From Sipunculus nudus (lineage: Eukaryota > Annelida > Sipuncula > Golfingiida > Sipunculidae), in assembly GCA_026874595.1 (NCBI GenBank), contig CM049317.1:69423118-69487117 (forward strand): a stretch of DNA of 64,000 nt, given 5' to 3'. The notes beneath the pieces were generated by a model, which ran no database searches, was not told the origin of the DNA, and saw only the letters and a list, made by a program, of their open reading frames with translations. Each line of letters opens with the position of its first letter. Position 1 is the first letter of the stretch. A program made the translations under genes and the position numbers. This document shows, piece by piece, positions 39,396 to 64,000 of this stretch.

Positions 39396-39399
39396 ATTT

Positions 39400-40511
39400 G
39401 GTAAACCGGCAGAGAAGTTCTTTGCGCATTTATGAGAAATAGTGCTTAAAAGCTTGTAAAATTTTAATTAAACAGCCTTGCTGTTCCATTTCTAGGGATA
39501 ATCCGCGACGTATTGCCCGTGCCCTCCGTGGGTGCTCGCGTGTGTTTGTGTAGATGAACTGCCGAAGCTTAACTGCTGGTGAGTTGATAACATTTGCTGC
39601 AATGAATGTAAATTAGTTCGTTCCCGTGTCATACAGCGTATCCGTATGTGTAGGGACCACTGACAGAGGGCGAGAGAGCAGGGGACCAGCTTACAAAGAA
39701 TGGGCCCTTGCATTCAACCCCTGAATATAAATAACTTAGAAAAAATCTCTTTGTATACAATATGCATGATTGGGAAAATCACTTTTGTGAGATCTTCCTA
39801 AAACTTTGCTAGCATTCACTTATTTGTCCCGTATTCCGAGGTTCATTCGTGCATTAGTAACTGCACATTAGTAAATATTCTTTGACGACATCCCTGAATA
39901 TGAGTTGTGTGTCGGATCCGAACCAACATTTTTCATTAACCCTAACTCAGCTTGTCCGTATAGTTTCGTTAGATTCTGGTTATGATTGCTAGGGCTATGC
40001 TGTGAACAAACACACACACAAACACACACGAACGGAGATGAACATGCAGATATCCTCCTAGGGGAAACAATCAGAAATTGCGATGGCGTCATGCATGTTC
40101 AACCTCTCTTACTTGATATTAGGCCGAATTATTTTTTTATTTTACACACTTTTCCTTTCACTGAATTAGTTTATACCTTCGTTTTGGATCTAGGCTATGA
40201 ATATACCGGCCATATGTTCGGAATCAATGACCCTTGTTTATGCCGTCAGCCTCTATCAGTTGGGAGGTAGTCACGTATTAGGGAATATTTAACCTAGATT
40301 AGTAGATACCAGTTAGTTGAATCGGCAAGAAGATACAGGAACACTATTTTACTGTAGTTTATTTACTTTAAAATTTCTTAACAATTCGGGTATAATGAAG
40401 TGAAATGTAATGGCTCATGATCCTCAAAGAAAGGTATGGTCATATTACATGTAGGCAAGTCCTGTGTTGTGCACAAACAATAGGATTTACGAAAACAGCA
40501 GTCACTCACTG

Positions 40512-41954: not shown

Positions 41955-42263
41955 CTAAGCACGATTTGCTTCAGTTATGCTTTCCTGTAGAACAAATTCT
42001 TTCATTAACGATATTTTCTGTGATATTCTGTCCCTGACAAGAACGGATAGACACATTAAGAATGAATCCAGTACCTGGTCAGGTTCCATTTTTATAGCCA
42101 CTGGGATCTCTGCCCCATATTTACTTGAGTCCACATTGAAATAAATACGAACAAGAAAAATCAAGTCCGAATCCATAGGTTCATGCTGGCCAACAATCCT
42201 GCATTTAAGAACCTCGGCATAACCCTCAGTCGTCACCTGTTCCACGAGACTCTTTAGCGGAAT
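41955..42263 (-). CDS. Integrin-like exon C paralogue, minus strand
   Basis: Acceptor TAATTATTAG-type (TAATTAG) at 42265-42264, phase 0. The frame VLKCRIVGQHEPMDSDLIFL continues to EFVLQESITEANRA and stops at TAG 41957-41955. Two endings are possible: a GTACTG donor after codon 63 (exon 42075-42263), or read-through to the stop. The C-terminal part aligns with exon C of the 30-33 kb gene, which favours read-through. No TM exon follows, so the product would be truncated or secreted, or the locus is a pseudogene. Confidence 0.5.
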   Translation of the reverse strand: MPLKSLVEQVTTEGYAEVLKCRIVGQHEPMDSDLIFLVRIYFNVDSSKYGAEIPVAIKMEPDQVLDSFLMCLSVLVRDRISQKISLMKEFVLQESITEANRA

Positions 42264-42493: not shown

Positions 42494-42724
42494 CGTTGGT
42501 GAAGACAACGTTTCGCTCTTCCAGTTTTCATCTGAAAGCTCAACCTTGGATATTAGATACGCATTTATATCCTCTGGAACATTTATAGTGTAGGAGTTCT
42601 TTTTCCTCCATGTATATTCGTCATCAAAGAATTTCTTCTGTGGTATGCAATAGTCATTATTCTTTGAAATTTTAGAAAAATGTGCAGTCGGAATCGTTAT
42701 GATTTGAATAAGTATCAACAAAGT
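42494..42724 (-). CDS. Integrin-like exon B paralogue, minus strand
   Basis: Acceptor TTGATTATAG, donor GTAAGT, 77 codons, phase 0 at both ends. It contains INVPEDINAYLISKVELSDE, alignable to exon B at 30757. The first 16 residues are hydrophobic (TLLILIQIITIP) but too short and polar for a clear TM. Confidence 0.58.
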
Positions 42725-43141: not shown

Positions 43142-43145
<4 letters not shown>

Positions 43146-43298
43146 ATGCTCAACACATCATCAAATCTGGGAACAAGCAGGCGGCTTGTATGTTCAAAAT
43201 AATCTTCCTGTTCACGAGATTTAAATTAAGAATATATCACTATGTGTTTTGCATGATTTAAAACGCACAGTGTAATATATGTCTTGTTTTTCACCTAC

Positions 43299-43416
43299 CA
43301 GTTCAAGTTACTTTTTAGTTTCTTTGACAAAAATATGTTTATTCGAAGTCAAAATTACCAGATTCCTCGCAAATAAACGAATCTCTGACCGACTGACTAT
43401 AGCCATCTTTCCCCTC
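43299..43416 (-). pseudogene. Decayed integrin-like exon A paralogue
   Basis: Acceptor CCCTTTCAG and donor GTAGGT are intact, but no frame is open throughout. One frame gives SVRDSFICEESGNFDFE and stops; a second gives NKHIFVKETKK and stops. Joined across a frameshift they resemble the end of exon A at 30.1 kb. The position, just upstream of exons B and C on the same strand, supports the reading. Confidence 0.35.
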
Positions 43417-43679: not shown

Positions 43680-44850
43680 AAAGGTTTTCGTAACCGCTGA
43701 ATGTAGAAACTTCTTAGGTCCAACGAGGTCCATTAAAAATTATCCTTGGAAATCTAGAATAAGGTTACTGTGACCTATATCCTCCAAGCTATGGGGTTAG
43801 TACCCCCCCCCCCCAGGAATAATTAAAAAATATAAAAATCGTCTTTTTCCAAAAAACCATGATGACCTGCTTCCACCCTGGGAGTTAGAAAGGGCATAAA
43901 TTATATTCGTTAGACCTAGAAACATTTAACTGTACATCCGGTGAGGTCGTTTGCAAATCTCTCAGACACCTGAAATTAGGTCATGGTGAAATTGCCCGAG
44001 CTAATGGCCGAAAATATGTTTTTGAGCACACAGAGAGTTAGACGAGGCACATTTTGGCCTACAATCTTCTGATGTGATACTCGGAGAAGTTCTTGGTATG
44101 TGACTAGAAATGTGAAATTAGGTCACTGTAATCTATATTTGGGAGCTATAGGAAATAAGAATTATGAGCACCATGGAAGTCAGATAAGCACAAAATGAAT
44201 ACGTAAGCCCATCTTCTAATGTAATATCCAGAATTGTCTAGTTAGGTTCTTTATTCTTTACGCAACTTGCCCAAATCACGATTTTAAACAACCAGACAGT
44301 CAGACAGGCCTGTTAGGCCTAAAATCTTATAACACAGTAGGTTCTTGCCAACTCTCCAAAAGTCGGGCATAGCACATAACTTTACTGTTGTACCTAAAAC
44401 GCTATCATGACATCCAGAGAGGTCCTTGACAAGTGTCCTTTGAATGATGCAATTAGTTCACTGTACACTATATCAATATTCTCTTTAGCTATGAGCACAA
44501 AACCTAATTTTAAGCACCCAGAAAGTCAGACAAATCACAAATCCTAACTGTGACGTCTTGAAATGTCTTTTTTAATATAAAGGGAGGTCATGTTATGTCC
44601 CCTTTGACACCGTGAGGTTACTGTAATCTGTCATGTGAGAGCTGTGTGAAACAATATGAGTTGAGTGCGTTGTATGTCAGATGGACACCTCTATTAGTTA
44701 TTAGCAGTGATACGTATTAACTTGGAAGGCTCTAGTAAAATCTCCTTGATGTTACTTATTTTCTAAGGATTATGGGCAAAACAATATGATCTTATATGAT
44801 CTTGAGCACTCTGGAAGTCAATTTACACATTGTTCACGGTCCCTTAATAT
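43680..44850. repeat. Degenerate tandem array derived from repeat A, period about 150-165 bp
   Basis: The motifs GAGGTCCxTG, GAAATTAGGTCACTGTAATC and AGTCAGACxAGGCACA recur about six times. No coding sequence is seen. Confidence 0.65.
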
Positions 44851-45274: not shown

Positions 45275-45373
45275 CTTTGAAGTGTTCCTTCCTGATTCAA
45301 GCTTATTGTTTCGAGTGCTACCTCCAGACGTGGTGAAGTATAAATCTGAATCATCACCGAGGCCGTGTGCTTC
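45275..45373 (-). CDS. Phase-0 cassette exon, 33 codons
   Basis: Acceptor TTTTCATTAG, donor GTAGTG. The peptide GLGDDSDLYFTTSGGSTRNN is disordered in character. A second frame (with an ATG) is also open, but phase 0 fits its neighbours. Confidence 0.5.
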
Positions 45374-48300
45374 CTAATGAAAACATGATAAAATATGTCA
45401 ACGTTCAATAAAATACAAAATGTATATGTAAAACATTGAAATGTTACTTTACCCGACATACAAAAAAAATGGTCAGTTCAGCATGTACACTCCTTGCTGA
45501 GGGTATGTTCTTATTTTAAGTTGTTTGCAACCATGACAAATGGATGATGAGACACCACTTTGGTAAATTATTGAGAAAATATTGTCTCTCTCGCTTTAAT
45601 GTTGTTATAGCTTACCTGCATAATCTACTGTAACACATGGTGTTAGTGGGAACTGGGGGTTTATTTTTGTAACCCTCGATTTATCTTAAATAATACATAA
45701 GGGTTTATCACATGAAATGATTTTGTTCATTTTTTCTCAGTACTGAAATAATAATGATTCCTAACATAGCCGTTAGTAAAACTAAGTTTATTGAATACCT
45801 CAATTTGCGACCTTCTTCTTGTGGCATCGTAGGACGAAAATGTACTGGAACAGCTTTTGGCATCATCCATCTGTAATATTAAATAAAGTATATAACCAGA
45901 ATTTCGAAAGGGGATTCACTTGTTGAAAAATATCAAGAGTATCGTTGTTTAAATGTTACCACATGTATGGTTTGTCATAATACTAAATTGGAACTTCAAT
46001 GACATCTGGAGACTTGCTCTTAATGCAAACAGTAAAATCATATTTTGGGTGATAACCTTCCCTTTATCCCCATCTATCCTGTGTTCCCCACGGACTAAAA
46101 CATGCAAATATCAGATTTTCCACTGGTAGTGAAACTGTAAATATGTTTGCTTCAAGGATTTAACAAATCTTATTGCAGCCCACCACCTGTTTGTGATGAG
46201 GAATAGGAATTTTTCCGACTGGCCAATGGTATAATAATAAATACTGATGCCTGCTTGTTATCATGGGCTGTCATCAATATCTGTATAACTGATGGATTGC
46301 TTGGAAGTTATAACATAAAAACAAACTATAACAAACTAACCCAAGTACTGACAAAGGTTTAACACGATGAGTTTATTTGATTTGATCCGTCCTAAAATAG
46401 GAGATGTTTATATCCTTATAGATAACAAATGATGTATTTTTATGAAAAGTCAAATTAAAGTTTGTTTGAAATCTCGGAATGGCAACAACCAAGAAATAAA
46501 ATGTGCGTTTGATCTTGAATGGCATAAGACTATTGATGCGTCTTTTTGGTGTTAGTGTATAATGTTAAGGATCATCTCGGGCAAGTAAGCAAGCATGAAG
46601 GTCTTCTTGTACACGCTTTAATGTTGTATAAAATGCGTATTCGGTATCATAATGCAGTTCTTCTTGCTCTTATTGTTTTATCTTTCAGATCTTTCAATTT
46701 ATTTTTGCAAGTTCCATTCCTATTTTTAAGCAGCCTAACAGTGATTTAATACTTAACTAATCCGTTTTGTTTTTATTCTACAAATCGTCTTGTTTTTTTA
46801 TGTTTAAAGCATGGCTACCACTGAAAACTACCTTCAGTGCTAAATCCTTTTCACTATAACGTTGACCTGTTCTCCTGGGAAACTTTTCGTTAAGAAATTC
46901 CTCATCATGCCTCTGCTAGAAAAAAAACAGCCAATAACGAAGGCGAATTAAAGTAAGCGGAGTATATTGCGATGAACATAATATCGGAATATTTCTGATG
47001 CTCTGCTGAAGTATGACCATAATTTACGATCAAATTTATATATATTTCTCGTATTTTCAATCGGCGACTTACTAATAACTGAGACAATATGCAAGTAGTT
47101 ACCGTATATGTGTCATTTTGTGAAGCCGCTTGTCTGTGGCCACTGCGTCTGGTAGGAACTTGCTTAGATTTCCTCTAAACATGCAAATCTTATAAAATGA
47201 ATTCCTGATATATGTTAATGCATTGATATATGTGGATGAGTATTTAAATAACTGCAGCTTTTAGAGCTTTTAAACTTGTTAAGTCCATTATGCTTCCTTT
47301 TGAAGTATACATGTTAATTAATGGGCTGCGGTGTTTTTATTTTCATTTGTCAAATGTTTAGATAGTAACCTTTCATTTTTCTTAGAATTAAAAGTCCATT
47401 ATTATCAACTATCACATTATCATTCTGATAAAAAGGTATAAGAAATTAGATTTGTTCAATTAAATTTTACCAGATTCGAATGAAATATAAAATGCAGATG
47501 TACGTACAGTTGCATTGGCAGGTGTATGTATATGCACTTGGGCTTGATTCTCACGGTGCAGGGACTAAACAAAAATAAACGACAGGGTTTTAATATCTAG
47601 TAAGGGCTATGCCAATGATTAATGCTAATTATGTGACTTGTCAGAGACCGACTAAATACGATATAACAAGGTTTTGCCTTAAAGGGTAGTAATTCTTTAA
47701 ATATAAAATAAACTCTTTGTAATGTATCAATTTCAAGTTTTCACGATAAATCCATAAAACATTACATTATTATGTGAAAAGGACACACTGATGTTTAATG
47801 TGTTCACGAAAACAAGGTATAACCTGGATGCAAATTGTTATATAAACAACTTTATATTTGACCAACTATTGCTATATAAACCTCCTCAATAGCCAAATTA
47901 ATATCTCTGTTCACTATTTGTTGATCAAGGTGAGTAATTTTATGATAGCTTTTGAATAAAGGCTCTTTGATCTCGTTTCTCTGTAAATATATTTAGGTAA
48001 TCATTCAAGTCCTGCCACTCAAAGTAATTAGACCTTTGCTGCATTGACTATATTAATTAGAACCTACAATTCATCATTTGCATCATATGGTTTTCTTGTT
48101 CACTTTAACGATTGAGTGTGACCGTTTATTTTGATGCAACAAAGTACTCACCATATATTCCATATTTTCATCGATACCCTGATCACTATGAAGAAGAGGT
48201 TCATGCGCCTCGCTCTCCTATAAATTATAAGCTTTAATGTATACGTTATATCGGGAGCTAGTTTTAACTTGAACTGTGCATGAATAATTCTTTTAGCGAA

Positions 48301-51300
48301 TATGAAATCCTGTTTACCGGTAATATGTTTTCCGAATGACGCTCAAGATTATTTTATTTTTCAGATCTGGTGTTGCTATCAAGTGTGTTTAAGAACAAGA
48401 ATTGCAAACAGTTACGGTGTTTGAATATTGGCCCTCGTAGCCTGTGTGACAATCGGGTTTACGATGATGAAGCTCCGTTTGATCGTGACAGCTGCTGCTG
48501 GTTGGAAATTGTCCTTTGTGTCCCTAAATAAGAAAATAATCACCGTTTGTTATCGTTTAAGTGAAAGTTCATGATGTTTTCCCTTATATGCATTCATAAA
48601 TAACCAATTAATTGCATTCATATAAACAGACAGAATGCCACATACCGATATTATATGTTCATCTGGAATACATTGTTGATCTAATGACCCGTGACCTCTT
48701 CCTCTTTTCAAATATTCCGAAGGTTGTCCCCGTTCGGAGGAATACTACAACAACAAGATATATGGGTAAAAAAGCACAGCTTCTCTCGTGTATTTTAGAC
48801 CACATTACAACATAAACATATGTGTGTATGTATGTGTTTTCACCTACATATATGAATTTTAAACATTCCCTGCTGTGTGATTTCATAAGGTTGTTAGACT
48901 ATTTACAGAAATGAAAACCTTAACAGAAATTTTATTACATATTGTAAATATGAATTACAAATCAAATTAAAGAAATATAAATGATATTAAAGAAATAAAT
49001 CCTTTCAGACAATTATTTGTTTTATAAATGGCTGACTGAAATATATTTCCTGTCAACATGTATTATTTAATTAATTACCTTTAAAAGAAGTTACTTAACG
49101 CTTGATATGTCCATTACAGAAATGAGTAAGAGAAGACATTTTGTAAATATACATTTAAATTAGATATTATGCTAACTTTAATTCTTTCAGATCTTCAAGA
49201 TCAAGATAAATCCACCGATTTCAGGAACAAATATGGAAACAAAAAACTCGGAACAAACAATATTAGTAGAAATAGAATCCCAACTTCACGAAGAACATTT
49301 TAGTTTATTCTGATATTAAAATTTAAGCTTGAGCAACTATTTTGTAAGGGAAATATGCACATTATTGGCCAGTCACTTGCAGAATACAGATCACCGTGCC
49401 ATAGTTTCAGGATTCCAAGGAGATTTACAAAGAACCTTCTTTGAGGTTGGTTTAGAATATTCTAGTTACAATTTGTGCCCTGGCTACTTCACTCGCAGAA
49501 TATATGTTCTTCATGACCTAATGTCAGGTGTCCAAAAATATTTGCCTGGAACCTCCTGGGATGTTGAGTTAAAAGAGTCTACATCTGACTCTCCAATTAT
49601 GTTTTTCTGTCCTTTAGCTCGCAGAATAAAGGTAACGGTGACCTAATTTCATGTTTCCAAGAAATTTTACCTATTATCTCACTGAACATCATATTACACA
49701 ATTCTAGGCCAATAAAATTTGTTCCCCGTCTGCCTTTTAGGTGCTACCAATTATGTTTTCACCCAGTATCTCGCAGAATATAGTTCTCGATAACATTATT
49801 TTACGTCTCAGAAGAGACCTAAATTTTTTCGGTCAAGCGGTTACGGTCTTTGCTCTTTTAACGCCCTCGCTGTTTCATTTGAAGGTCTTTAATATAGAGA
49901 CAAAATGTGTAAACAGGGACCTAATTTCAAGTGTACAAGGAAATGTTTGATCTCCTTGTATCTTACGTTTGAAGATTCAAGGTCCAGCGGTTACGTTTTG
50001 TGTCCTTTTATTGGACGGACATACGGACGAAGACTGACAAAGAGTGATCGCTATAGCTCATCTGACTTTCTCTCTTATCAATCACATGGGTTCACATGCC
50101 TCTAACAATTGTGTCTGCTAGGAATAGACTTCCTTGATCTTTGACAATTTAAAATGTAAACGTATACGTTGTACACATTAATCTGAATTTATGGTGATAT
50201 AATTATATATTACGACCCAATAATAGGTACACCTGAATTCCTAGTCCAATATTATTGATTCATTGTCATTAGAGAATAAGGAATATTGAAGTCTACGTTT
50301 TCATAGACGATGAAAGCATGGTGCCCATGAAAACTGCAAAAGGCTAAAAAAATTTGAATTGATATCTTATCTTACCGCAGCTGAACATGGATGTTCAAGG
50401 TGATATGGGTCACTTCCTCTGTGTCTACTCTTCCGAGTCAAGCTTTCCCGGTCTGGGGACTATAACAGGCATATAAAAAGAATAAGGTTCAAATTTTATT
50501 CTAATTGTAAATTTATCATATATATATATATAATAGACAGCATGTTACAAATATGAGTAAATTGTATATCTCAAATGCATATAAAAACGAACATCAAATT
50601 GACAAAATTGACAAATGCCGTGTCTGGGCATCCTTCTTCAGGAGTTTGCTGTAACTGGTACTAAACATTAATTATCAATGTCGAATGGGCGGCAGAGTTT
50701 TTTGTTCTATTAATCCTTACCCTGGGGCTTTTGGCTATTTTGTAGCGGGGTCATCCAAAACAATCCGCTTACACACGGCCTTTTTTAATGTTTTCTTGTA
50801 AAGTAAACACGGGCTGCACTTATTGATTGCAAGCAGGTTTTGTGGGATTTGGGCAAACTAGAGTGCTTGTGAGCTTCATGTGGCAAGGAACTTTCTCAGG
50901 AGAAATATGTGTGTGGAGGTCACCACTTGCTGTAGCTGGACATTTCAATGAAAGGACCTGCGGGTCTTACTATGGTATCAAGAGACCAGTTGTTTCATGA
51001 ACTATTTCTAACATTAGAAAACTTAAACACTGAAAAAATTATTTGCCAAGTTACAGCATATTTTTATCACACAGTGTGTGTATGAACTGGTTTATTCCCG
51101 GTACACCTGGTGGCGAACTTTTGGACTGAGAGGGGATATTTTCCTGGTCTCGGCAGACTTTTGGTGGTGGAGTGCTATGACCAACCTGTGGACGGCCATT
51201 TAGTCGATGTCTGTTGTAGGTCTTTTTGCATGTACTGTTTTAAGTCCAGCAAAACCTAAATTAATGCAGCTCAGTGTATGGTAATACGGTACTATGGTAA

Positions 51301-54300
51301 TACTGGATGTTTGCATGTAAAGACCTTGTAGTGTAATTGTTTTTCACTCTTACATGCATTTTGAAAGCCCCAATTATATTCCTAAAGTTTAGCTGATTAC
51401 TAGAATTCTTAAATGTCCTTTTGCTCCTTGATATAAAATGAGATTAAACTGAAGAATATGGACCTTATTTAATCAGTACATACGAAATCAAGTGGTACCC
51501 CTGACAATTTTTATAGCTTGAGTTCAGCATCTTTTCTTATTGCCCAGAATATCAAAGTATATAGGAGTTAATGTAAAGATCCACATGTGATCTATAAAAG
51601 TGACCGAAACAATTGTTATTATTTTGGGATAACAGTGGGTTGTTTATTTTTATAGGTTGTGATTTGTATGTTTTGTCTACCTGGCTGCCTCGTGTGATGC
51701 CTCTGCGGATACGGGCTAATATTATCCGAGAACGTTCTGCAGAAGAAGGCCACGCAAAATTCATTTTATTTTGTTTTTAGTGTAAATAATTGTATCATTA
51801 AACGCTTTATATCTTCTCTTTGTTAAACCCACGCTGCCATGAGAGTCAGTCCTTAGGAAATCATCAAAATTTAGAGACATAATAAAAGAATCTAAGTTTG
51901 ATCCTGATCCAGTATATGACTTGTATGTGACCGTGACACACTCCTCATGGCTGTATAATCAAATTAAGATCCTAATTTTTCATAATGATAAGCTATAATG
52001 TCAGCAACACTTTTAAAGACAATTTTGATATTAAATTCTGATTTTAGACAAAATTAAGACATTGACTCATGAAATGCTTACATTCGTGGTTGCTGAATGC
52101 ACGTTCGTTGGGCGATGTATCGACTGACTATACCCCTGGATGTTTGATAAGGTTCCTTTATTTCGGTCCCCCTGTAAAACATTTGCAGACTAACATAATG
52201 CAACTCATCTACCGTTCATATATATACCCGTTCGTTCTAGTGCTACATAACTACATCCTAGGTCCCAAGACGGATCGTTTCATCATGAGAAGTATAATAA
52301 CTTATGTCTGGGCCGTTCTTCTCTATTATGTTATATTAAGATTAAATCATGCTGGCGTCATCCGAAACAGCTGAGAATTGAAAATAAAAATATGGATCTG
52401 CAATAGCCTGCACTCATTTTCCCCAGGTATTAAAATGTCCGTTATGTTTACATTGTCAAACATTGTTAGATTTAAACTGTCTAATGATTTAAAACGCTGT
52501 GGATTTATATACCTATATATATATATATATATATATATAATACATGAATATATATATATAGATTTATATACCTATATATATATATATATGAATATATATA
52601 TATATATACATATATAATTATACATTTATATAATTGTGTGCGTGTCAATTTCAAGATGATAGGCAGCACAGAGACAGAATGTGGGAAATGCTTTATCGGG
52701 GAATAGGTTTTTCAGAACCTTTATCATAACGGCTTTAAAATGCTAACTTTATGTTAATTTGTAAAGCCAGTAAGACACATACCGGTCTTTAAGATGATGT
52801 AAATCTGACTGTATAAAATAACTGTTGGTTGGACTGACCCTTCTTTTCATATGAAAACAAAATATAAATTGCTGTATCCCGGATACCATTTCGCATTATT
52901 TTGTCAATGGAACAAAGACTCCACGTATAAATTTCACAGGCTAGAATAAAATATTTTTTAATATAGAACCATTTTTATATATGGTATTTTATTTGATGAC
53001 AAACAAGTAATGCTGACTAACCAATAATGTTCCCGTTTCTAGCAGTAAAAAGCAAAAAGCGCAATATTTAATGAAAGATCAGTTCTATTATTTTATCAAG
53101 GAAAGGAGGAAATATACGTTTTGCATAGTAGGGAATAAAATGTCGGGATCTGCGGTGTATATTTTCAGATGATCTTAAGTTTCAGAGGCAATTCAAAGTG
53201 GCGTTTTGTACAGTCGTATCTTGCCAGTTATTATCCTGCCCATAGACGTGTGCATCGTAAGTATATTTATGTCAATTACAAAATAAATATTGATAAATAC
53301 CAGTTTGAAACGGACGTCTTTTCGCTGGCTTTTATTGACTGGAATCTGGTTCCTCACAGTTGTTAAAGTCTCATTCTGAAAGTGTTGATTATCTGCTGAT
53401 CTGATAAGATGGCCTCTCGAGGGGATTTCAGAAATCTGTTGCTGCAAGTAGCAATTATAAACAGTGTATTTATGAAGGAAAACTATTAAATACTGTGTCA
53501 TGCTGTCATGTATAGTTAGTCATGGGAGTCAATTTAAGGCATTATTATTCAAACAAATTGAATAAAAATGCATTAAGACACACTGCATTAATTTGCATAC
53601 ATTTAATCATAAGAATTTTTATATTAAAATAGCTAGTGTGATTAAAAAGTATTAACAACACGATCACGTACTGTTATTCAGTTTTTTTTTAATATCTACG
53701 TCCATTTAAACTCCCTTGTATTGATCCTTTCCATGGCAACACAACATAAAATAAGTACACTTTTATTTATACTTTTCCAATTATATCTTGTTTGATATTT
53801 TGTTCCCTATTAACAGGATAAAAGCGAGCGTTTATTGAAAAATACCGTATTACAATATCCCTCGTGCGTCTGATGTTCACTAAATGGTCTGTTAGCACCA
53901 TGCCTCGCAGGAACAGGCCTTGTTTGGTCCTGCAAGAGCAACATCTTGTAAAGAATAGGATACTTTGTTGAAAATAAATTCAACGACATGAATGGAGGCA
54001 AGCATAAAAAACACAAGGAAACGAATGTATACCATATTGAATAGTACATGGGATATGAAATGTGCAAACCTTTATCTTAAATACTAGTATTTCATACTGT
54101 TACCCATGAATTAAAGATAACATTTTAAAAGGAAATGTTCAACAAATTTATCCTAGTTAAAGGAGATTAAACAGTTACATTAACTCAAGTTAGCATAAAT
54201 ACAATAAGAACAACACATGCTTATTACATTGAAACACATTGAGCCCATGGCATTTTATCTGCCGATGATGAAAAAATGAATATATAGATGAACAAAAGAT

Positions 54301-57300
54301 ATGTGGAAGTGTCAAATGTTTTTCACAATCTCTTTCTGGAATTTTCACGTTTTGTTGGTAAACATGACAATAGGTTAATTATCTTAGATCTGTAAGACAA
54401 CAACGACTAATAGAAAACAAATGAAAATTGTCACATTTGAATAGTTTGATACAGGCAAATGTGGACAAATTACACTATGGCCTTTGCTTCCTATGTGTTT
54501 ATACCAAACTGGTCGCAATGGCGATGAGAAGTTCAAAACACACAAGATTGTGTAATATACATTTCATAAAAACTAAATTTTTCGAGTATTGCCTTGATTT
54601 TTTTAGACAAATGTCCTTAAAGTTTAATTCTTTATTAAAGAAACAGTAATTAGTATGTTTATTTACTAATTATTTTGCCTTATAGTGTTGATTGAAATTA
54701 AGACGTATATTTAAGTATAATTAGGCGAATATAATCGAATAATGTTACTGTTGGTTTTGTTTATGATATGTTTATTTTGAGGATTTAATGTGAAAAATCA
54801 CGATCCAGCTGTCAGCTGGAATTTTTTATGTTCCACTTTAAAATGTAACGGTAACCAAATTTTACACCTGCAATATTTTCCTTTCTTATTCTATCAGTAA
54901 TGTGCAACTGATGATCTGTTCTAAAAAAAATCTCTCGTGGTGACTTCACAAATCTGTTGCTGCGCGCACCAATTGAAAACTGTGTATTTATGTAGAGAAA
55001 TCATATATAATATCGTTTCGCGTTGACATGTATATTACATTATGAGAGTCAATTTTAAGCATTTTTATAAAGCAAATGTATGCCTAAAATGTTTTTAGAC
55101 ATACTGCATGTATCAACATTCTTTTGACTTCGGAATAATAATAGAAAAATAACACATGAATAAGACGTATGTATATAAGACGATAACGTATTGTGAATCT
55201 TTTTTATTTTTATGTCGATTCAGTGAACACAGTTTGGTCTTCTCTTCTAGAGCAACACAACATAGAAAGTACCTTTTCTGTAAGCAACTTAAACATTATC
55301 GGTATAAGGAAGAGGTATGTACAAATAATTATGTTCGTGTGACTAGAAGAAATTTGCTGATCAAAACACAAGATAAAGTAAGAAATTTCATTACAATTAT
55401 CCTAATATTTGGCTATTATCGTCTTGTTTAGATTAAAAAGAATGAATGTCTTTAAATTAATTCCTAATTCAGATCAGTATTAATAAGTATGTTATTTTGC
55501 TGTTTAGGTTTCATCCTTTATATCTGTTTTTATTCACATTGTTGTATAAAATGGAACAATCGCATAAAAACTACCATCACCGTAAGATCCTCCCCAATAA
55601 TACTTGTTTTAAATGGCCTGCGAGTATCCCTGGTGTAACCCGCTATGTGATGTTCTTGTTAAAAAACAACACCATTGAATATGTATTATGTACATTGAAA
55701 TGGTTTTGTTGTAATAAAAGGATATGGGTATAGGTATTATATAATTATATTAATTATATCTGTATACCATCGTAAGTCATTATACAGGATAACAGTGACA
55801 AAGGTATAATCAACTGTTACTTCCACAAAATAGTTTTCGAATCTTTCTTGCATTGCAATTGCAAACCATAGGGTCCAGTTTGTTAAAAAAATTATTGTTA
55901 TTACATTGTCAAAGTAGGCGACAGTGATTTACCTGTGGCTGATGAATATTTGAATACATGATATCAAGTTAATCTGGATAAATTTGACTCTGATAACTTT
56001 CTATCAATATCCCAGTGTATGGCTTATTGTGAATCATATATTCAATGAATAAACATTAATCTACTTTATGATGACAAAGTTAGATTGCAGGTCCGAGATT
56101 AGTTTTTAGATAAATCCTGTATAAACACCGATCAAGTATTATTCAGATGAGCTGTCAGGTGTATATCGATTTAACTACTGTTTCTTTAGTCCTCATTTCA
56201 GTTTGATGGTTAAATACCCCTCTATTTATTTTGAAACATGCTGCTGTAATTTTTTTTATGAATGGGAGTATGCACTCTATGTACATTTGCATACTAAAAT
56301 GGTTACCTTGTTTGAACACCCGCCGTCTCGAATTTTTGGAGGCATGGATCTGTAATTTCTGTATGTGTATCCCTGTGCATGATTCCAAAGTACAAAATGG
56401 AACATCCAATATGTTGATATTATAGCATTGGCTACATGAAAAATTATAGTTTCAAGACTTACAAATAACCCTTTATGACCATAAATTGCCATGTTGTTTT
56501 ATTTTACTTTATGCTCTGTATTTTCTCTGTTGGAAAGTACGGATTTCATTTCATTTGGCCTGGAAGGATAAAACATTACTTCTAGAAAAATAGCACGGAG
56601 AAACATGATATATCAGATAAAAATTCTACTTTGATTTTGTTTTGATATTTCGGCACGGTCGTGCCCCTGCCATGTTTAAAGTTTCATTCCGAAAACAAAT
56701 TATTGTAATAAGCAAATGCTTCTACCATCAAGTATGAACGTATGACATGTATAACGTAAATCGTGGTATCATTCTTGAATACCCACAACTTTGGGTTATT
56801 TCTTGAAAGATTGTAGTACATATTTGTTCCATTCAGCACAAGCATGAACGGCTTAACAGAAGGATTTAGATAATCACCGTATTTGAAGAGTCCTGGATAA
56901 GATTAAGTGAATCCGACACTCTGCAAGTATTTCTTCCGTCGCGCATTACCCTTCCGTCCCCCTAAATATGAAATGAAAAAAAAATATACATTTGCCCCGT
57001 CTAAGAGTAATCGTATCTTTGCAGGGCCATACATCAGTGGTTTAAGGAACAACACAGGATAAAGGATTTGCACGGTCAACACGACCAAGGATTAGCCCTC
57101 GGTTTAATGAGAAGATGGGACGAACGGTTGTGGGTGTCATTTTCCGAGCCAGCGATGGGGTTGATAACAAGTCCAGGTGCGGTACATCGAGCCTGGTTTA
57201 CACCAGGATATTTGTGTGTTACCACAATGTCTCTTTTCCCGAAATCAAAATGGAATTCTGCAGGTGTCTATAGTTAGTGAAATCGGTACTAAATAAGGAA

Positions 57301-60300
57301 GCGGTTACTTTGATTCAGAAAATGTCTTAACAAAAGTATTCATTTTATATAGAACTACTTTTAGCGTCTTACATTACTCCTTTAATGACCATTGTCCCAC
57401 CCTAGCATGCGTGAACACCAAATGCCCGTCTCTGACAATTGAGAAAACGCCCTAAATCTACAGACCTATATATAAAAAATGTTTTAAATTAATGTAAATG
57501 CTTTGGGATCGACTGGTTTTTTATCACAAGGACTCAACGCCAAACTAGATATAACGGTTTTCAAGACAATTTTTCTTCGATAACATAGAAAGGTTAGACA
57601 TATATCAGTGAACTCACTCTTGCGTTGACATGTTCAGTCGCATGCACTTGCACTTCAACCTCTTGGATCTTAACAGAAATGCTATTATTAATTTAGAGCC
57701 TTTGACGAATATCGTCTAATTCTTTTAATGGCAATGATAGATATTCCATGATATTGACTCACATATCAAAGACAGTGGTTATGGTTTGATAACAAATAGG
57801 TTAACAGTACCATAATATATTCCCTCATTTGTTCAATGAAAATATCATGTGAAATATGTTAAATATATTTTTGTAAAATTACAAGAAATAAAAGTCAGAC
57901 AATATGCTAAAAATTCAAATATCCAGCTCGCCAGTGAAAGACAATGCTCTTAATATAGGTTGTAATATTAATTATATTGTATTCAATTAGTTTTGTGTAT
58001 TATTACTTCAAATTATGGTTGTCACACTGAGTGTTGTCTAATGAATACCCTTCATTCGTTAATTCCTGCTAAGTACTTTAAGCAAACCCAGAGTGAAACT
58101 ACGTAAATCAATGCTTTTCCTTGGTCGCAAAAACTGTCATTAACTATCATGATCATTATCGATGCAAAGAATCATGGTGATCAATGCATAAGTTGTTCGA
58201 ATACTTGCGATTCTGTATCAAATTTTCCATTATTTTGGGGGTACTTCGGAGCCCCATAGCTTGAAGAATATTGGTAACAGAGACCTAATTCCAACTTTTT
58301 AAGGAGATTTTTCATGGTTCTTTCTGGATGTTAACTTAGAAGATTCCAGTTTAAGTCTTAACGATTTGTGCCCTTGTGTCCGGACAGAAGGCTGGACGGT
58401 TGACGGACAAAGAATGATTGCTATAGCTTAGGCGAATTACAGTCAGCGGAGCTTAAAATGAAAAGCAGAGCTCGTGAATCACAAAATTGTACATGCTAAC
58501 TTATTATTACTCGTTATACTCACTGTGCCTCCTACATTTTGGCCAATATTCTGCCGAATATTTCTTAAAGGCTCCCTGCCTTCATTCCCCTTTAGCATAT
58601 CAAAGATAAACATGCAGTTTATTGGAGGATTCATAAAATTACTGATAACAGCGTTACTGGGAATCGTTCTATCTTGTATCCTTGAACATATTTTAAAACA
58701 AACATACGGGTTCGACCCCAGAGTTTTGATGTTTTGAATTGAGAGAAAGAATGTGAGACAAAACGCTTTTCCACTGGCGTCATGAATCGTCAGAAACAGA
58801 CTTAATAAAGACTCGTAACTAAAATTGCAAAAAGGATCATAGGCTACATTGAGGCGTAGTTGCTATCAACAAAAAGGTAAAAAGCAAAGGTCGTGCATCC
58901 ACAGAAATGTACATGCAATCTTATTATATGCAATAAGTCACATACTTATGCTCATGCGCGATTTAGTCGCAATACTCACTGTGTTTTGTACATTTCGGTC
59001 GATATCCTGCTGAATGTTTCCTATAGGCTCTCTGGCTCCATTCCCCTGTAACATTTCATAGATAAACATGCAGTTGATTAGAGGATTCGAACAGTTTGTA
59101 ATAATAGCGTCTATGACGGGTTCAACCTCGTACCGTAAAACATATTTTAAGACAAACAAACGGTTCGACGCAACATTTCTGATGTATTGAGTTGAGAGCT
59201 AGAATGTAAGACAAAACGCTTTTCAAAGGTCGTCATGAACCGTCATATACAGTCCTAACCGGGCCTAATAAACACTTGTAATTGATTCTTTTAAAAGGAC
59301 CATAGGTTACATTGAAACGACATTGCAACCAAAACAAGTTGGAAAGATTTCGTGTATCCACAGAGGTGCAGAAGCAATCCTATTATATGCGATGAGTGAC
59401 ATGCTCGCTCATCTACATGCGTAATTAAAGTCGAAATACTCACTGTGCCTTGTACATTTTGGCCTATATTCTGCTGAATATTTCCTGAAGGTTCTCTGGC
59501 TCCATTCCCCTGTAACATATCAAAGATAAATATGCAGTATTTTAGAGGATTCCTACAATTACTGATAAAAGTGCCTTGAGGGATTTTATCTTTTATTTTG
59601 CAACATAATTTAAGTCAAACATACGGGGAGACTCCAGAGTTCTGGTGTATTGAACTGAGAGCTAGATTGTAAGACAAAACGCTTTTCAAAGGACGTGATG
59701 AACCGTCATATACTGTCATAACCAGGCATAATAAAAACTAATTGGTAATTTTAAAAGGGATCATAGCTTACATTGAAACGACATTGCAACCAAAACAATT
59801 TGTGTAGATGTCGTGAGTCAACAGAGGTGTACTTGTAATCTTTTTATCGGCTATTTGTAACATGCTCACTTATGCTCATGCAAGATTTAAGTCGTAATAC
59901 TTACTGTGTTTTGAACATTTTGGTCGATATTCTGCTGAATATTTCCTATATGCTCTCCGACCCCATCCCCCTGTAACAAATAATGGAGAAAATTGAAGTT
60001 GGAAATTATTCTTAAAAGTATTGATAATAGCATCTACGTTAGATTGAATGGCTTAACAGAAAGATTTAGATAATCATCGTATTTGAAGAGTCCTGGATAA
60101 GATTAAGTGAATCCGACACTCTGCAAGTATTTCTTCTGTCGCGCATTACCCTTCCGTCCCCCTAAATATGAAAAAAATATACTTTTGCACCGTCTTAGAG
60201 TAATCGTGTCTTTGCAGGGGCATACGTCAGTGGTTTAAGGAACAACACAGGATAAAGGATTTGCACGGTCAACACGACCAAGGATTAGCCCTCGGTTTAA

Positions 60301-63300
60301 TGATAAGATTGGACAAACGGTTGTGGGAGTCATTTTCCGATCCAGCCATCTGGTGATAACAAGTCCAGGTGCGGTACATTGAGCCTGGTTTACACCAGGA
60401 TATTCGTGTGTTACCACCCTGTCTCTTTTTCCGATATCAAAATGGAATTCTGCAGGTGTCTATAATTAGTTAAATCGGTACTAAATAAGAAAGCGGTTAC
60501 TTTGATTCAGAAAATGTCTTAACAAAAGTATTCATTTTATATAGAACTACTTTTAGCGTCTTAAATTACTCCTTTAATGACCATTGTCCCACCCTGGCAT
60601 TCGTAAACACCTAATGCCCGTCTCTGACAATTGAGAAAACGCCCTAAATCTACAGACATATTTATTAAAAAATGTTTTAAATTAAGGTAAATGATTTGGT
60701 ATCGACTGTTTTTTTTTATAACAAGGACTCAACGCCAAACTATATATAACGGTTTTCAAGACAATTTTTCTTCGATAACATAAAAAGGTTAGACATATAT
60801 CAGTGAACTCACTCTTGCGTCGACAGGTTCAGTCGAAGGCATTTGCAATTCAACCTCTTGGATCTTAACAGAAATGCTATTATAAATTCAGAGCCTTTGA
60901 CGAATATTGTCTAATTCTTTTAATGGCAATGATAGATATTCCATGATATTGACTCACATATCAAAGGCAGTGGCTATGGTGTGATAACAAATAGGTTAAC
61001 AGTACCATAATGTATTCCCTCATTTGTTCAATGAAAATATCATGTGAAATATGTTAAATATATTTTTTTGTAAAATTGCAAGAAATAAAAGTCAGACAAT
61101 ATGCTAAAAATTCAAATATCCAGCTCGCTAGTGAAGGACCATGCTCTTAATATAGGTTGTAATATTAATTATATTCTATTCAATTAGTTTTGTGTATTAT
61201 TACTTCAAATTAACTTGGATACGTGTTTACATTTATGACTGCCGATTCCATATCATGTATGATTTGTAAATACTGGTTGTCACACTGAGTGTTGTCTAAA
61301 GAATACCCTTCATTCCCTAATTCCTGCTAAGTACTTTAAGCAAACCCAGAGTGAAACTACGTGAATCAATGCTTTTCCTTGGTCGCCAAAAACTGTCATT
61401 AACTATCATGATCAATATAGATGCAAACAATCATGGCGATCAATGCATTAGTTGTTCGGATACTTGCGATTCTGTATCAAATTTTCCATTATTTTGGGGG
61501 TACTTCGGAGCCCCATAGCTTGAAGAATATTGGTAACAGAGACCTAATTCCAACTTTTAAAGGAGATTTTTCATGGTTCTTTCTGGATGTTAACTTAGAA
61601 GATTCCAGTTTAAGCCGTTACGATTTGTGCACTTGTGTCCGGACAAAAGGCTGGACGGTTGACGGACAAAGAATGATTGCTATAGCTTAGGCGAATTACA
61701 GTCAGCGGAGCTTAAAATGAAAAGCAGAGCTCGTGAATCACAAAATTGTACATGCTAACTTATTAATACTCGTTATACTCACTGTGTCTCCTACATTTTG
61801 GCCAATATTCCGCTGAATATTTCTTAAAGGCTCCCTGCCTTCATTCCCCTTTAGCATATCAAAAATAAAAATGCAGTTTATTGGAGGATTTGTAAAATTA
61901 CTGATAACAGCGTTACTGGGAATCGTTCTATGATGTACCCTTGAACATTTTTTAAACAAACATAAGGGTTCGACCCCAGAGTTCTGATGTTTTGAATTGA
62001 GAGAAAGAATGTGGGACAAAACGCTTTTCCACTGGCGTCATGAATGGTCAGAAACAGACTTAATAAAGACTCGTAACTAAAACTGCAAAAAGGATCATAG
62101 GCTACATTGAGGCGTAGTTGCTATCAACAAAAAGGTAAAAAGCAAAGGTCGTGCATCCACAGAAATGTACATGCAATCTTATTATATGCAATAAGTCACA
62201 TACTTATGCTCATGCGCGATTTAGTCGCAATACTCACTGTGTTTTGTACATTTCGGTCGATATCCTGCTGAATGTTTCCTATAGGCTCTCTGGCTCCATT
62301 CCCCTGTAACATTTCATAGATAAACATGCAGTTGATTAGAGGATTCGAACAGTTTGTAATAATAGCGTCTATGACGGGTTCAACCTCGTACCGTAAAACA
62401 TATTTTAAGACAAACAAACGGTTTGACGCAACATTTCTGATGTATTGAGTTGAGAGCTAGAATGTAAGACAAAACGCTTTTCAAAGGTCGTCATGAACCG
62501 TCATATACAGTCCTAACCGGGCCTAATAAACACTTGTAATTGATTCTTTTAAAAGGACCATAGGTTACATTGAAACGACATTGCAACCAAAACAAGTTGG
62601 AAAGATTTCGTGTATCCACAGAGGTGCAGAAGCAATCCTATTATATGCGATTAGTGACATGCTCGCTCATCTACATGCGTAATTAAAGTCGAAATACTCA
62701 CTGTGCCTTGTACATTTTGGCCTATATTCTGCTGAATATTTCCTGAAGGTTCTCTGGCTCCATTCCCCTGTAACATATCAAAGATAAATATGCAGTATTT
62801 TAGAGGATTCCTACAATTACTGATAAAAGTGCCTTGAGGGATTTTATCTTTTATTTTGCAACATAATTTAAGTCAAACATACGGGGAGACTCCAGAGTTC
62901 TGGTGTATTGAACTGAGAGCTAGATTGTAAGACAAAACGCTTTTCAAAGGACGTGATGAACCGTCATATACTGTCATAACCAGGCATAATAAAAACTAAT
63001 TGGTACTTTTAAAAGGGATCATAGCTTACATTGAAACGACATTGCAACCAAAACAATTTGTGTAGATGTCGTGAGTCAACAGAGGTGTACTTGTAATCTT
63101 TTTATCGGCTATTTGTAACATGCTCACTTATGCTCATGCAAGATTTAAGTCGTAATACTTACTGTGTTTTGAACATTTTGGTCGATATTCTGCTGAATAT
63201 TTCCTATATGCTCTCCGACCCCATCCCCCTGTAACAAATAATGGAGAAAATTGAAGTTGGAAATTATTCTTAAAAGTATTGATAATAGCATCTACGTTAG

Positions 63301-63419
63301 ATTGAATGGCTTAACAGAAAGATTTAGATAATCATCGTATTTGAAGAGTCCTGGATAAGATTAAGTGAATCCGACACTCTGCAAGTATTTCTTCTGTCGC
63401 GCATTACCCTTCCGTCCCC
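45275..63419 (-). CDS. Minus-strand gene made of short phase-0 exons (span of the array within the window)
   Basis: I find 23 exon-like segments with AG acceptor, open frame and usually a GT donor, all phase 0 at both ends, reading from 63419 down to 45275. Sizes are 17, 19, 22, 24, 28, 33 and 36 codons. Several are related to each other, so they arose by repeated exon duplication. All peptides are hydrophilic, without TM or signal sequence, rich in Ser, Arg, Asn, Gln and His, and look disordered. By analogy with the tails of the plus-strand receptors they may be cytoplasmic-tail cassettes of a receptor whose ectodomain lies right of the window. Alternatively they form a spacer in front of the integrin-like exons at 42.7-42.0 kb, which lie downstream in the same phase. 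I recognise no known family. Two of the 28-codon exons (60161-60078, 63419-63336) have lost their donor. Confidence 0.55.
45799..45870 (-). CDS. Phase-0 cassette exon, 24 codons
   Basis: Acceptor AATATTACAG, donor GTATTC. Peptide MDDAKSCSSTFSSYDATRRR, then SQIE. Confidence 0.5.
46832..46915 (-). CDS. Phase-0 cassette exon, 28-codon family
   Basis: Acceptor TTTTTTTTCTAG, donor GTAGTT. Peptide QRHDEEFLNEKFPRRTGQRY and on to DLALK. Confidence 0.55.
47103..47174 (-). CDS. Phase-0 cassette exon, 24 codons
   Basis: Acceptor GCATGTTTAG, donor GTAACT. Peptide RKSKQVPTRRSGHRQAASQN, strongly basic. Confidence 0.52.
47508..47564 (-). CDS. Phase-0 cassette exon, 19 codons (QVH family)
   Basis: Acceptor GTTTAG, donor GTACGT. 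Peptide SLHRENQAQVHIHTPANAT; it aligns with the 17-codon exons at 57618 and 60813 (QVHATEHVNAR). Confidence 0.55.
48152..48217 (-). CDS. Phase-0 cassette exon, 22-codon family
   Basis: Acceptor TAATTTATAG, donor GTGAGT. Peptide ESEAHEPLLHSDQGIDENME; the EPL and I-x-x-N positions match the 22-codon exons at 58-63 kb. Confidence 0.58.
48416..48523 (-). CDS. Phase-0 cassette exon, 36 codons
   Basis: Acceptor TTCTTATTTAG, donor GTAACT. Peptide starts GHKGQFPTSSSCHDQTELHH and has three cysteines. Confidence 0.5.
49370..50070. repeat. Dispersed repeat A, reverse orientation, several degenerate copies
   Basis: Ends with GGACGGACATACGGACGAAG and GCTATAGCTCATCTGACTTT, the complement of the repeat A head. 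The ORFs 49329-49646 and 49741-50105 lie in it and are not genes. Confidence 0.75.
50376..50459 (-). CDS. Phase-0 cassette exon, 28-codon family
   Basis: Acceptor GCCTGTTATAG, donor GTAAGA. Peptide SPDRESLTRKSRHRGSDPYH and on to CSAA; it shares R14 and SD16-17 with the exon at 56878. Confidence 0.6.
50462..53357. other. Intronic spacer, no supported exon
   Basis: TA-rich tracts lie at 52514-52612. A minus-strand segment near 51770-51678 and one near 52355-52290 have splice-like borders but do not fit phase 0. Confidence 0.45.
53358..53441 (-). CDS. Phase-0 cassette exon, 28-codon family
   Basis: Acceptor GCTACTTGCAG, donor GTGAGG. Peptide QQISEIPSRGHLIRSADNQH. A decayed copy is at about 54925-54972. 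Confidence 0.58.
53846..53929 (-). CDS. Phase-0 cassette exon, 28-codon family
   Basis: Acceptor GTTGCTCTTGCAG, donor GTATTT. Peptide DQTRPVPARHGANRPFSEHQ. A decayed copy lies near 55217-55250. Confidence 0.58.
54920..55290 (-). pseudogene. Decayed copy of the two-exon cassette block at 53.36-53.93 kb
   Basis: CAACAGATTTGTGAAGTCAC follows a GCGCGCAG acceptor, as in the exon at 53441, but a TAG comes after 12 codons. Further right, GACCAAAC after TGCTCT matches the start of the exon at 53929 and is also broken. Flanks such as GAGAGTCAATTTTAAGC are shared too. Confidence 0.55.
55300..56845. other. Intronic spacer, one weak exon candidate
   Basis: A minus-strand segment at about 56369-56327 has an ACAG acceptor and GTAACC donor and can read SMPPKIRDGGCSNK, but it is not phase 0 on entry. 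Nothing else is supported. Confidence 0.4.
56878..56961 (-). CDS. Phase-0 cassette exon, 28-codon family (unit 1), donor intact
   Basis: Acceptor CATATTTAG, donor GTGATT. Peptide GDGRVMRDGRNTCRVSDSLN and on to QDSSNT. Without splicing, the frame stops four codons later. Confidence 0.58.
57618..57668 (-). CDS. Phase-0 cassette exon, 17 codons (unit 1)
   Basis: Acceptor TTCTGTTAAG, donor GTGAGT. Peptide IQEVEVQVHATEHVNAR. Confidence 0.55.
58130..58440. repeat. Dispersed repeat A copy inside unit 1
   Basis: Ends GCTATAGCTTAGGCGAATTA; the equivalent copy in unit 2 is at 61380-61700, so the insertion predates the tandem duplication. Confidence 0.75.
58524..58589 (-). CDS. Phase-0 cassette exon, 22-codon family (unit 1, a)
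   Basis: Acceptor ATGCTAAAG, donor GTGAGT. Peptide GNEGREPLRNIRQNIGQNVG. Confidence 0.6.
58980..59045 (-). CDS. Phase-0 cassette exon, 22-codon family (unit 1, b)
   Basis: Acceptor ATGTTACAG, donor GTGAGT. Peptide GNGAREPIGNIQQDIDRNVQ; identical to the unit 2 copy. Confidence 0.62.
59444..59509 (-). CDS. Phase-0 cassette exon, 22-codon family (unit 1, c)
   Basis: Acceptor ATGTTACAG, donor GTGAGT. Peptide GNGAREPSGNIQQNIGQNVQ. Confidence 0.62.
59905..59970 (-). CDS. Phase-0 cassette exon, 22-codon family (unit 1, d)
   Basis: Acceptor TTTGTTACAG, donor GTAAGT. Peptide GDGVGEHIGNIQQNIDQNVQ. Confidence 0.62.
60078..60161 (-). pseudogene. 28-codon cassette exon (unit 2), donor GT changed to AT
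   Basis: The 28 codons are open and the CATATTTAG acceptor is kept, but the position of the donor reads ATGATT. Read-through adds three codons and a TAA (60068-60066). It is either a dead exon or a new terminal exon. Confidence 0.5.
60813..60863 (-). CDS. Phase-0 cassette exon, 17 codons (unit 2)
   Basis: Donor GTGAGT, acceptor TTCTGTTAAG. Peptide IQEVELQMPSTEPVDAR, with several amino-acid changes from unit 1. Confidence 0.55.
61380..61700. repeat. Dispersed repeat A copy inside unit 2
   Basis: Matches the copy at 58130-58440. The 89-codon plus-strand ORF at 61421 is a shadow. Confidence 0.75.
61783..61848 (-). CDS. Phase-0 cassette exon, 22-codon family (unit 2, a)
   Basis: Peptide GNEGREPLRNIQRNIGQNVG; splice sites as in unit 1. 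Confidence 0.6.
62238..62303 (-). CDS. Phase-0 cassette exon, 22-codon family (unit 2, b)
   Basis: Same peptide as the exon at 58980-59045. Confidence 0.62.
62702..62767 (-). CDS. Phase-0 cassette exon, 22-codon family (unit 2, c)
   Basis: Same peptide as the exon at 59444-59509. Confidence 0.62.
63163..63228 (-). CDS. Phase-0 cassette exon, 22-codon family (unit 2, d)
   Basis: Same peptide as the exon at 59905-59970. Confidence 0.62.
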
Positions 63420-64000
63420 CTAAATATGAAAAAAATATACTTTTGCACCGTCTTAGAGTAATCGTGTCTTTGCAGGGGCATACGTCAGTGGTTTAAGGAA
63501 CAACACAGGATAAAGGATTTGCACGGTCAACACGACCAAGGATTAGCCCTCGGTTTAATGATAAGATTGGACAAACGGTTGTGGGAGTCATTTTCCGATC
63601 CAGCCATCTGGTGATAACAAGTCCAGGTGCGGTACATTGAGCCTGGTTTACACCAGGATATTCGTGTGTTACCACCCTGTCTCTTTTTCCGATATCAAAA
63701 TGGAATTCTGCAGGTGTCTATAATTAGTTAAATCGGTACTAAATAAGAAAGCGGTTACTTTGATTCAGAAAATGTCTTAACAAAAGTATTCATTTTATAT
63801 AGAACTACTTTTAGCGTCTTAAATTACTCCTTTAATGACCATTGTCCCACCCTGGCATTCGTAAACACCTAATGCCCGTCTCTGACAATTGAGAAAACGC
63901 CCTAAATCTACAGACATATTTATTAAAAAATGTTTTAAATTAAGGTAAATGATTTGGTATCGACTGTTTTTTTTTATAACAAGGACTCAACGCCAAACTA
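63308..64000. repeat. Tandem array, unit 3 (start only, cut by the window edge)
   Basis: About 690 bp that appear identical to the first 690 bp of unit 2. Confidence 0.9.
63336..63419 (-). pseudogene. 28-codon cassette exon (unit 3), donor GT changed to AT
   Basis: Same sequence and same donor loss as the unit 2 copy. Confidence 0.5.

Follow-up and report, generated by a model that had tools for sequence, protein, structure and literature searches.

Does a run of short, splice-bordered exons on the minus strand of a Sipunculus nudus contig form a free-standing source of protein variants, or does it belong to a larger gene? The 64,000-nucleotide stretch that raises this question (the window) was placed by a search of the whole 1.43-Gb assembly at C12:69423118-69487117, where C12 is contig CM049317.1. 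A preliminary description of the window had proposed an array of about 23 mutually in-phase mini-exons that could be joined into very many proteins. We consider it probable (roughly 0.78) that the array is instead the 3' part of one type I membrane receptor gene, which would encode two C-type lectin domains, a transmembrane helix, a disordered tail built of cassettes and a domain formed by the last two exons, U and V. The symmetric cassettes of the earlier account stand, but they lie directly downstream of a lectin head and most likely encode a cytoplasmic tail and not a free or recognition-diversifying protein. An undescribed diversity-generating system is not established.

Exon excess and a lectin head

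Candidate exons were segments of 45-115 nt, a multiple of three in length and open in frame 0, with splice sites above threshold. Acceptors and donors were scored with approximate animal splice matrices, and candidates were called hydrophilic at a grand average of hydropathy (GRAVY) below -0.8, a cut picked after a first look at them. Between 41.0 and 60.7 kb of the minus strand, counting a 3.26-kb repeat in one of its copies fewer, there were 19 non-overlapping candidates, and 17 of the 19 were hydrophilic (16 catalogued mini-exons and one piece of exon U); 200 dinucleotide shuffles gave a mean of 4.0 candidates (maximum 10) and of 0.6 hydrophilic ones (maximum 3). On the plus strand this interval held eight candidates, none of them hydrophilic, and from 0 to 41 kb there were 13 on the minus strand and 22 on the plus strand, with three hydrophilic on each. 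When overlaps are counted, hydrophilic open candidates with a length divisible by three numbered 19 in frame 0, two in frame 1 and five in frame 2, and the remaining length classes and frames with any such candidates gave 8, 5, 1, 1 and 3. Three mini-exons (F, N and Y) fall below the candidate threshold and were called by eye or via a paralogue. The excess is strand- and frame-specific, and on these counts the splice-bordered, in-phase mini-exons of the preliminary description are real.

The exons that give the array its context lie beyond the window. On the same strand, 6-9 kb past the window end (C12:69494030-69496411), we found lectin, stalk and membrane exons followed by two mini-exons. 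The eight head exons join into 1046 nt with a single open frame. Lectin_C (PF00059) matches the joined exon pairs c3+c4 (E 1.7e-8, 35.6 bits) and c1+c2 (E 3.8e-7, 31.2 bits), in both cases above its curated cut-off of 22.6 bits; the borders of these exons are provisional. The predicted transmembrane helix, VLAILAAVFLILAVALCFL, has a peak 19-residue hydropathy of 3.24, against 0.77 for the next best segment of the joined head. Introns before the membrane exon are in phase 1, the membrane exon itself ends in phase 0, and the two cassettes after it, IWNKSSGKEGTAKNNTEEHE and LMPKDKHEAQPIEEED, are phase 0 on both sides; from the last head exon to the first array exon the gap is about 0.5 kb on the same strand. 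Because the head runs into phase 0 and U and V are open solely in frame 0, the frame is indicated independently from both ends.

The array itself continues past the window. Four copies of every cassette from A to F are present in the window locus (gene 1), with A-D reaching about 6 kb past the window end, and the B segment has 13 matches genome-wide, all at this locus and reaching C12:69492870. The array had been described as ending at 63419, which proved too short. Thirteen symmetric phase-0 exons beyond the window are added to the 26 inside, for what would be a gene 1 total of 39 cassettes (2 + 16 A-D + 4 E + 4 F + 13), 36 of which have a GT donor. Head and array would be read as one transcript, from the head to V, and the tail would consist of a long disordered cytoplasmic segment of about 39 phase-0 cassettes followed by a folded U-V domain. 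The argument of the preliminary description that the gain, loss or skipping of symmetric cassettes leaves the frame intact is supported, and the inclusion of single cassettes could vary in this way. The receptor would then probably be expressed with tails differing in length and content, and such variants would tune signalling or adaptor binding, not ligand recognition.

Cassettes, tandem repeats and the 3' end

The window holds 26 phase-0 mini-exons, all on the minus strand: two copies each of A-D and F, three of E, and 13 singles (G-K, M-S and Y, with no L). Thirteen of the 26 sit in repeated units and represent only six distinct cassettes. The array was correctly perceived at the outset, but its count of about 23 was not, and one member (Y) was recognized only through a paralogue. 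The first repeated set comprises the 28-codon E1 (GDGRVMRDRRNTCRVSDSLNLIQDSSNT, 63336-63419), the 22-codon cassettes A1 (GDGVGEHIGNIQQNIDQNVQNT, 63163-63228, with borders ttacag and gtaagt), B1 (GNGAREPSGNIQQNIGQNVQGT, 62702-62767), C1 (GNGAREPIGNIQQDIDRNVQNT, 62238-62303) and D1 (GNEGREPLRNIQRNIGQNVGDT, 61783-61848, with a weak acceptor, ctaaag), and the 17-codon F1 (IQEVELQMPSTEPVDAR, 60813-60863). The copies E2 (60078-60161), A2 (59905-59970), B2 (59444-59509), C2 (58980-59045) and D2 (58524-58589) follow, with a second 17-codon cassette, F2 (IQEVEVQVHATEHVNAR, 57618-57668), and the 28-codon E3 (56878-56961). The donor is AT in place of GT in 2 of the 26, E1 (at 63419) and E2 (at 60161), while E3 (at 56961) has GT (gtgatt). 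The splice borders earlier ascribed to each exon are present on most, but these two 28-codon segments lack the donor GT.

The singles begin with G (22 codons, GYTYRNYRSMPPKIRDGGCSNK, 56307-56372), H (28 codons, DQTRPVPARHGANRPFSEHQTHEGYCNT, 53846-53929) and I (28 codons, QQISEIPSRGHLIRSADNQHFQNETLTT, 53358-53441), a partial duplicate of which, at 54959, contains a frame-0 stop. J (30 codons, GDRNKGTLSNIQGYSQSIHRPTNVHSATTN, 52082-52171) and K (28 codons, SPDRESLTRKSRHRGSDPYHLEHPCSAA, 50376-50459) come next, followed by M (33 codons, 48646-48744), whose paralogue at C12:69348040 is also open; N (36 codons, 48416-48523), in whose paralogue one nucleotide is deleted and the donor is gone; O (22 codons, ESEAHEPLLHSDQGIDENMEYM, 48152-48217), whose paralogue is without a donor; Y (33 codons, RNEIKEPLFKSYHKITHLDQQIVNRDINLAIEE, 47882-47980), with a weak donor, gtttat; P (19 codons, SLHRENQAQVHIHTPANAT, 47508-47564), identical over 57/57 nt in gene 2; and Q (27 codons, RHDEEFLNEKFPRRTGQRYSEKDLALK, 46832-46912), with an in-frame 3-nt indel in its paralogue. 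R (24 codons, MDDAKSCSSTFSSYDATRRRSQIE, 45799-45870) and S (33 codons, EAHGLGDDSDLYFTTSGGSTRNNKLESGRNTSK, 45275-45373) complete the set. Twenty-one distinct cassettes fall on the disordered side of a charge-hydropathy plot, in agreement with the hydrophilic, disorder-type peptides first reported. The joined cassette peptides had no Pfam family above cut-off (best Apolipoprotein, E 0.0029, 17.8 bits against 90), which agrees with the initial account, where no known family was recognized.

A 22-codon and a 28-codon family had both been suggested. The first is strong for A-D (pairwise z 5.4-11.3) and extends to O (48217-48152), a distant member (z 5.6, 5.4, 4.2 and 2.2 against D, C, B and A); the 25 best pairs listed include none between G (at 56372) and A-D. 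The second is unsupported: its five distinct peptides make 10 pairs, and the best shuffle p was 0.04. An alternative frame for A-D was also tried and set aside. Frame 2 (phase 1-1) has the lower ratio of nonsynonymous to synonymous differences (pN/pS) and is open in A-C, yet it is stopped in D and in all other tabulated cassettes except G, and both gene ends demand phase 0.

Cassettes A-D occupy 463-bp tandem units, and a 3.26-kb repeat carrying E-A-B-C-D-F is present in two tandem copies in the window (57548-64000, minus strand, boundary 60742/60743). Introns differ at 47/2795 sites (1.7%) between these copies and exons at 9/399. A, B, C and E (E1 against E2) are identical, and all nine exon differences lie in D and F and change an amino acid in frame 0; the three in D2 are all silent in frame 2, and the other six separate F2 from F1. 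The divergence of F1 and F2 is 11.8% (6/51 nt) compared with 4.0% in their flanks, which may reflect conversion or diversifying selection. Across gene 1, C is identical in its four copies, while the four F copies encode four different peptides. Judged by these repeats, the array grew by 463-bp and 3.26-kb tandem duplications.

Towards the 3' end of the proposed gene lie four further segments on the minus strand. T, an exon-like segment of 58 nt (43359-43416), is identical to gene 2 at 58/58 positions and has ambiguous borders; it is phase 0 only with an internal donor at 43390 (27 nt, EGKDGYSQS). W is a candidate 17-codon phase-0 cassette (EDYFEHTSRLLVPRFDD, 43157-43207), found in both paralogous loci and likewise ambiguous. 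When W is extended to its end (43142-43207), its frame terminates with a stop in gene 1, at a position that is TGG in genes 2 and 3. The penultimate exon, U, spans 42494-42661, with a true start at 42637 (KKFFDDEYTW...) suggested by conservation, and the last exon, V (41958-42263), contains 102 codons followed by a TAG stop. U and V together plot on the folded side of the charge-hydropathy boundary, and V is predicted as alpha-beta-beta-beta-alpha with a predicted local distance difference test (pLDDT) score of 78 in the best of five models from single-sequence input. They most likely form a small folded alpha/beta C-terminal domain. Pfam, a PDB sequence search, Foldseek and VIA-align returned nothing firm on the identity of this domain; its best Pfam matches (KicB, E 0.057; MBF2, E 0.073) are both below their cut-offs, and a search of viral contigs gave four pattern matches and no relative. 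A COMM fold for V is a weak lead only. The idea of a TRADD-N domain in U-V (PMC8195603) found no support.

Paralogous loci and alternative readings

Paralogues were compared within 264 kb of fetched sequence around the window; the whole-genome search covered B, N, U and V, and the remaining cassettes were searched in the 264 kb only. U and V each occur in three places genome-wide, which share one strand of C12; N occurs in two, this locus and one tandem paralogue. Gene 2 (V at 69341997) carries M-V, and gene 3 (V at 69288600) carries only T-V, the M-S block being missing as a unit. Between genes 1 and 2, 341/5381 non-exon sites differ (6.3%), with 37 indels, and 75/1182 exon sites differ, so the exons overall are no more conserved than the introns. 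The indels present a different picture. The nine exons intact in both genes (1009 nt; N and O omitted) contain a single 3-nt indel where the introns predict 6.9 indels (P 0.008), and with N and O included there are two in 1182 nt against 8.1 expected. P and T are unchanged in gene 2 over 115 nt, compared with 6.3% intron divergence, although this pair was chosen after the fact and T is not identical in gene 3. At these loci, the changes at donors and the missing segments indicate that single cassettes are lost by donor mutation or deletion.

Several results weigh against the receptor gene model or against coding constraint on its tail. The gene model is read here from genomic sequence. A signal-peptide exon was sought in 14.6 kb upstream, where four start sites in two places were all unconvincing, and no minus-strand lectin head for genes 2 and 3 was found in the fetched 264 kb; head and tail are consequently joined at only one locus. 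Genes 2 and 3 may be headless fragments, gene 2 possibly a decaying one, which weakens what can be drawn from them. Codon usage lent frame 0 no support (totals -12.4, 18.9 and -38.1 in frames 0, 1 and 2, stops omitted), a result we judge uninformative, and none of seven signalling-type motifs was enriched in the tail peptides (lowest p 0.117). Three of the four E copies in gene 1 are without a GT donor. The preliminary description had named stops or frameshifts in equivalent segments as evidence against the array, and in the closest paralogue two of the 11 exons compared are damaged: N is frameshifted by its 1-nt deletion and has lost its donor, and O has lost its donor. The other nine remain open, given a shorter form of Q; a stop in gene 2 at the first codon of the longer Q fits a shorter exon beginning at the second AG. 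Finally, pN/pS is 1.68 among the four 3.26-kb copies (18 against 3 changes), 0.82 among A-D, 1.24 between genes 1 and 2 (10 exons, W omitted) and 1.33 for the nine intact exons (bootstrap interval 0.75-3.50). Frame 0 has the highest value of the three frames in the A-D, 3.26-kb-copy and gene 1/2 comparisons, the opposite of purifying selection in that frame.

Divided by exon, the ratio between genes 1 and 2 is 2.00 (0.79-6.66) for M, P, Q, R and S, 0.95 (0.42-3.07) for U and V, and 0.68 (0.23-2.90) for N and O, and T and W have one amino-acid change and no silent one. The frame tends to be kept in these comparisons while amino acids change freely, as would be expected of a disordered tail on which selection is weak or diversifying, and in part also of decay.

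How such a tail would be spliced is a separate question from the gene model. The most ambitious proposal is that a constant lectin head is followed by some 36-39 cassettes combinatorially spliced into many intracellular tails and renewed by tandem duplication, with amino acids changing at or above the neutral rate; we regard this as doubtful. Better placed, though still short of an even chance, is a constitutive long tail, in which every cassette with intact sites enters one mRNA and there is no isoform diversity. The gene model would be the same and only the splicing would differ, the array having grown since symmetric exons are tolerated in a disordered region. Tandem duplication explains the number of A-F cassettes, many cassettes have good splice sites, and amino-acid change is near neutral, all of which suit such a tail. 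The weak or broken sites in D (acceptor ctaaag), Y (donor gtttat) and E (donor AT) nevertheless make at least some exon skipping likely, which does not decide between constitutive and regulated splicing.

It is improbable that function is limited to the first few cassettes (t1, t2 and some others) and that most of the array consists of drifting, non-functional duplicates. A pN/pS near 1 and highest in frame 0, the loss of donors from three of four E copies, the damage to N and O in gene 2 and the stopped remnant of I at 54959 are what decay would leave. Set against them is the finding that none of the nine intact exons is frameshifted by an indel (P about 0.001, in a test that left out the frameshifted N), together with the unchanged P and T and the four identical copies of C. 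Exons broken in gene 2 also have a higher synonymous divergence than the others (0.136 against 0.042, from few sites).

Slightly less credible again is a pair of genes, with the lectin receptor ending shortly beyond its membrane exon and a separate cytosolic gene made up of the array plus U-V. That no lectin head was found on the strand of the U-V paralogues in the fetched sequence would be in keeping with this. Strand and phase are continuous across the gap of about 0.5 kb, however, and two ordinary phase-0 cassettes stand between the membrane exon and the array; no terminal exon was noticed in the gap, where no formal search for one was made. Very remote is the explanation by chance, that splice-like borders happen to surround open frames in AT-rich DNA: single short frames are commonly open at random, and the matrix was approximate and the cut-off set after a first look, but the 17 hydrophilic candidates against at most three in shuffles, the frame-0 peak and the joining of the head exons in one open frame all contradict it.

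Neighbouring features and known systems

Other features of the window surround the receptor locus. A single-exon rhodopsin-family receptor lies on the minus strand at 38382-39467 (7tm_1, E 5.5e-11), and similar N-terminal peptides occur at C12:69338898 and 69285482, which suggests that the tail locus was copied along with this receptor in a segmental duplication. A dispersed repeat is found in the array introns and elsewhere in the window, in both orientations and about 70-87% alike in the listed pairs (58128-58458, 61387-61717, 49899-50068, 43688-43829, 3952-4786 and 13035-13467). Scans of the window gave no Rfam matches and, with bacterial settings, no tRNA genes. A second C-type-lectin-like receptor is located on the plus strand from 16360 to about 28000, with four exon matches (42-59% to the head exons) and a membrane-type helix near 27.95 kb, in a frame starting at 27954; two more plus-strand lectin copies lie at C12:69310-69326k and 69371-69375k. 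Between the plus-strand lectin exons, on the minus strand at about 19245-23163, is a retrotransposon that encodes reverse-transcriptase RNase H and integrase zinc-binding domains.

C-type lectin transmembrane receptors have in common with gene 1 the two Lectin_C domains, the stalk and the single transmembrane helix. Relatives of one lectin exon are numerous in the genome, where at least 150 of 427 candidates scored as matches. A report on a clam places a C-type lectin among its expanded genes (PMC8905726). The two relatives examined here have no array, because only one hydrophilic phase-0 candidate occurs in the 13.5 kb past the membrane helix of the plus-strand receptor in the window and three in the 20 kb past that of a relative at C12:71.83-71.85 Mb; U and V, in turn, are confined to the three tandem loci. 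Among the literature matches listed, from sources that include few subscription journals, there was no lectin receptor with a mini-exon tail array.

Schistosome micro-exon genes (MEG) offer an architectural parallel. In two papers they are described as having many short symmetric exons and long introns and as mosaic, fast-evolving and duplicated (PMC10526429, PMC5825161). The exons are 6-36 bp over about 80% of the coding region in one account and 3-81 bp in the other (PMC10526429, PMC5825161), whereas the cassettes here are 48-108 nt, some of them at or below 81 nt and none at or below 36 nt. The proteins made from MEG have a signal peptide and are either secreted or anchored in the membrane, while the array here would lie inside the cell, behind a lectin head. 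Proteomics has also confirmed MEG variants, in contrast to cassettes read from the genome. Dscam-hv is alike in being a receptor gene with tandemly duplicated exons, but the exons in its arrays exclude one another and mainly encode Ig parts of the ectodomain; those of gene 1 are symmetric, follow the membrane exon, give no sign of mutual exclusion and encode no Pfam family above cut-off when joined. The locus resembles MEG in architecture and Dscam in being a receptor, and it shows the tested defining features of neither.

Smaller likenesses exist elsewhere. The receptor tail of PECAM-1 is encoded by several short, alternatively spliced exons, with far fewer cassettes and no known tandem array. 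Caseins are secreted milk proteins with no known receptor head. In one paper, the alpha-s1 and alpha-s2 casein genes are described as having many small exons, exon duplication and skipping via splice-site mutations (PMC12470106).

Receptor diversity by splicing is best known in ectodomains. If the proposed tail diversity is true, it would mirror the receptor diversity of the Dscam type from the inside out, affecting signalling and not recognition. A receptor with an expandable tail would raise the question of whether animals without antibodies diversify signalling output rather than recognition. The three tandem loci, with intact, broken and duplicated cassettes, are a natural case of exon birth and death, and they allow a direct test of the idea that a locus gains evolvability from symmetric exons.

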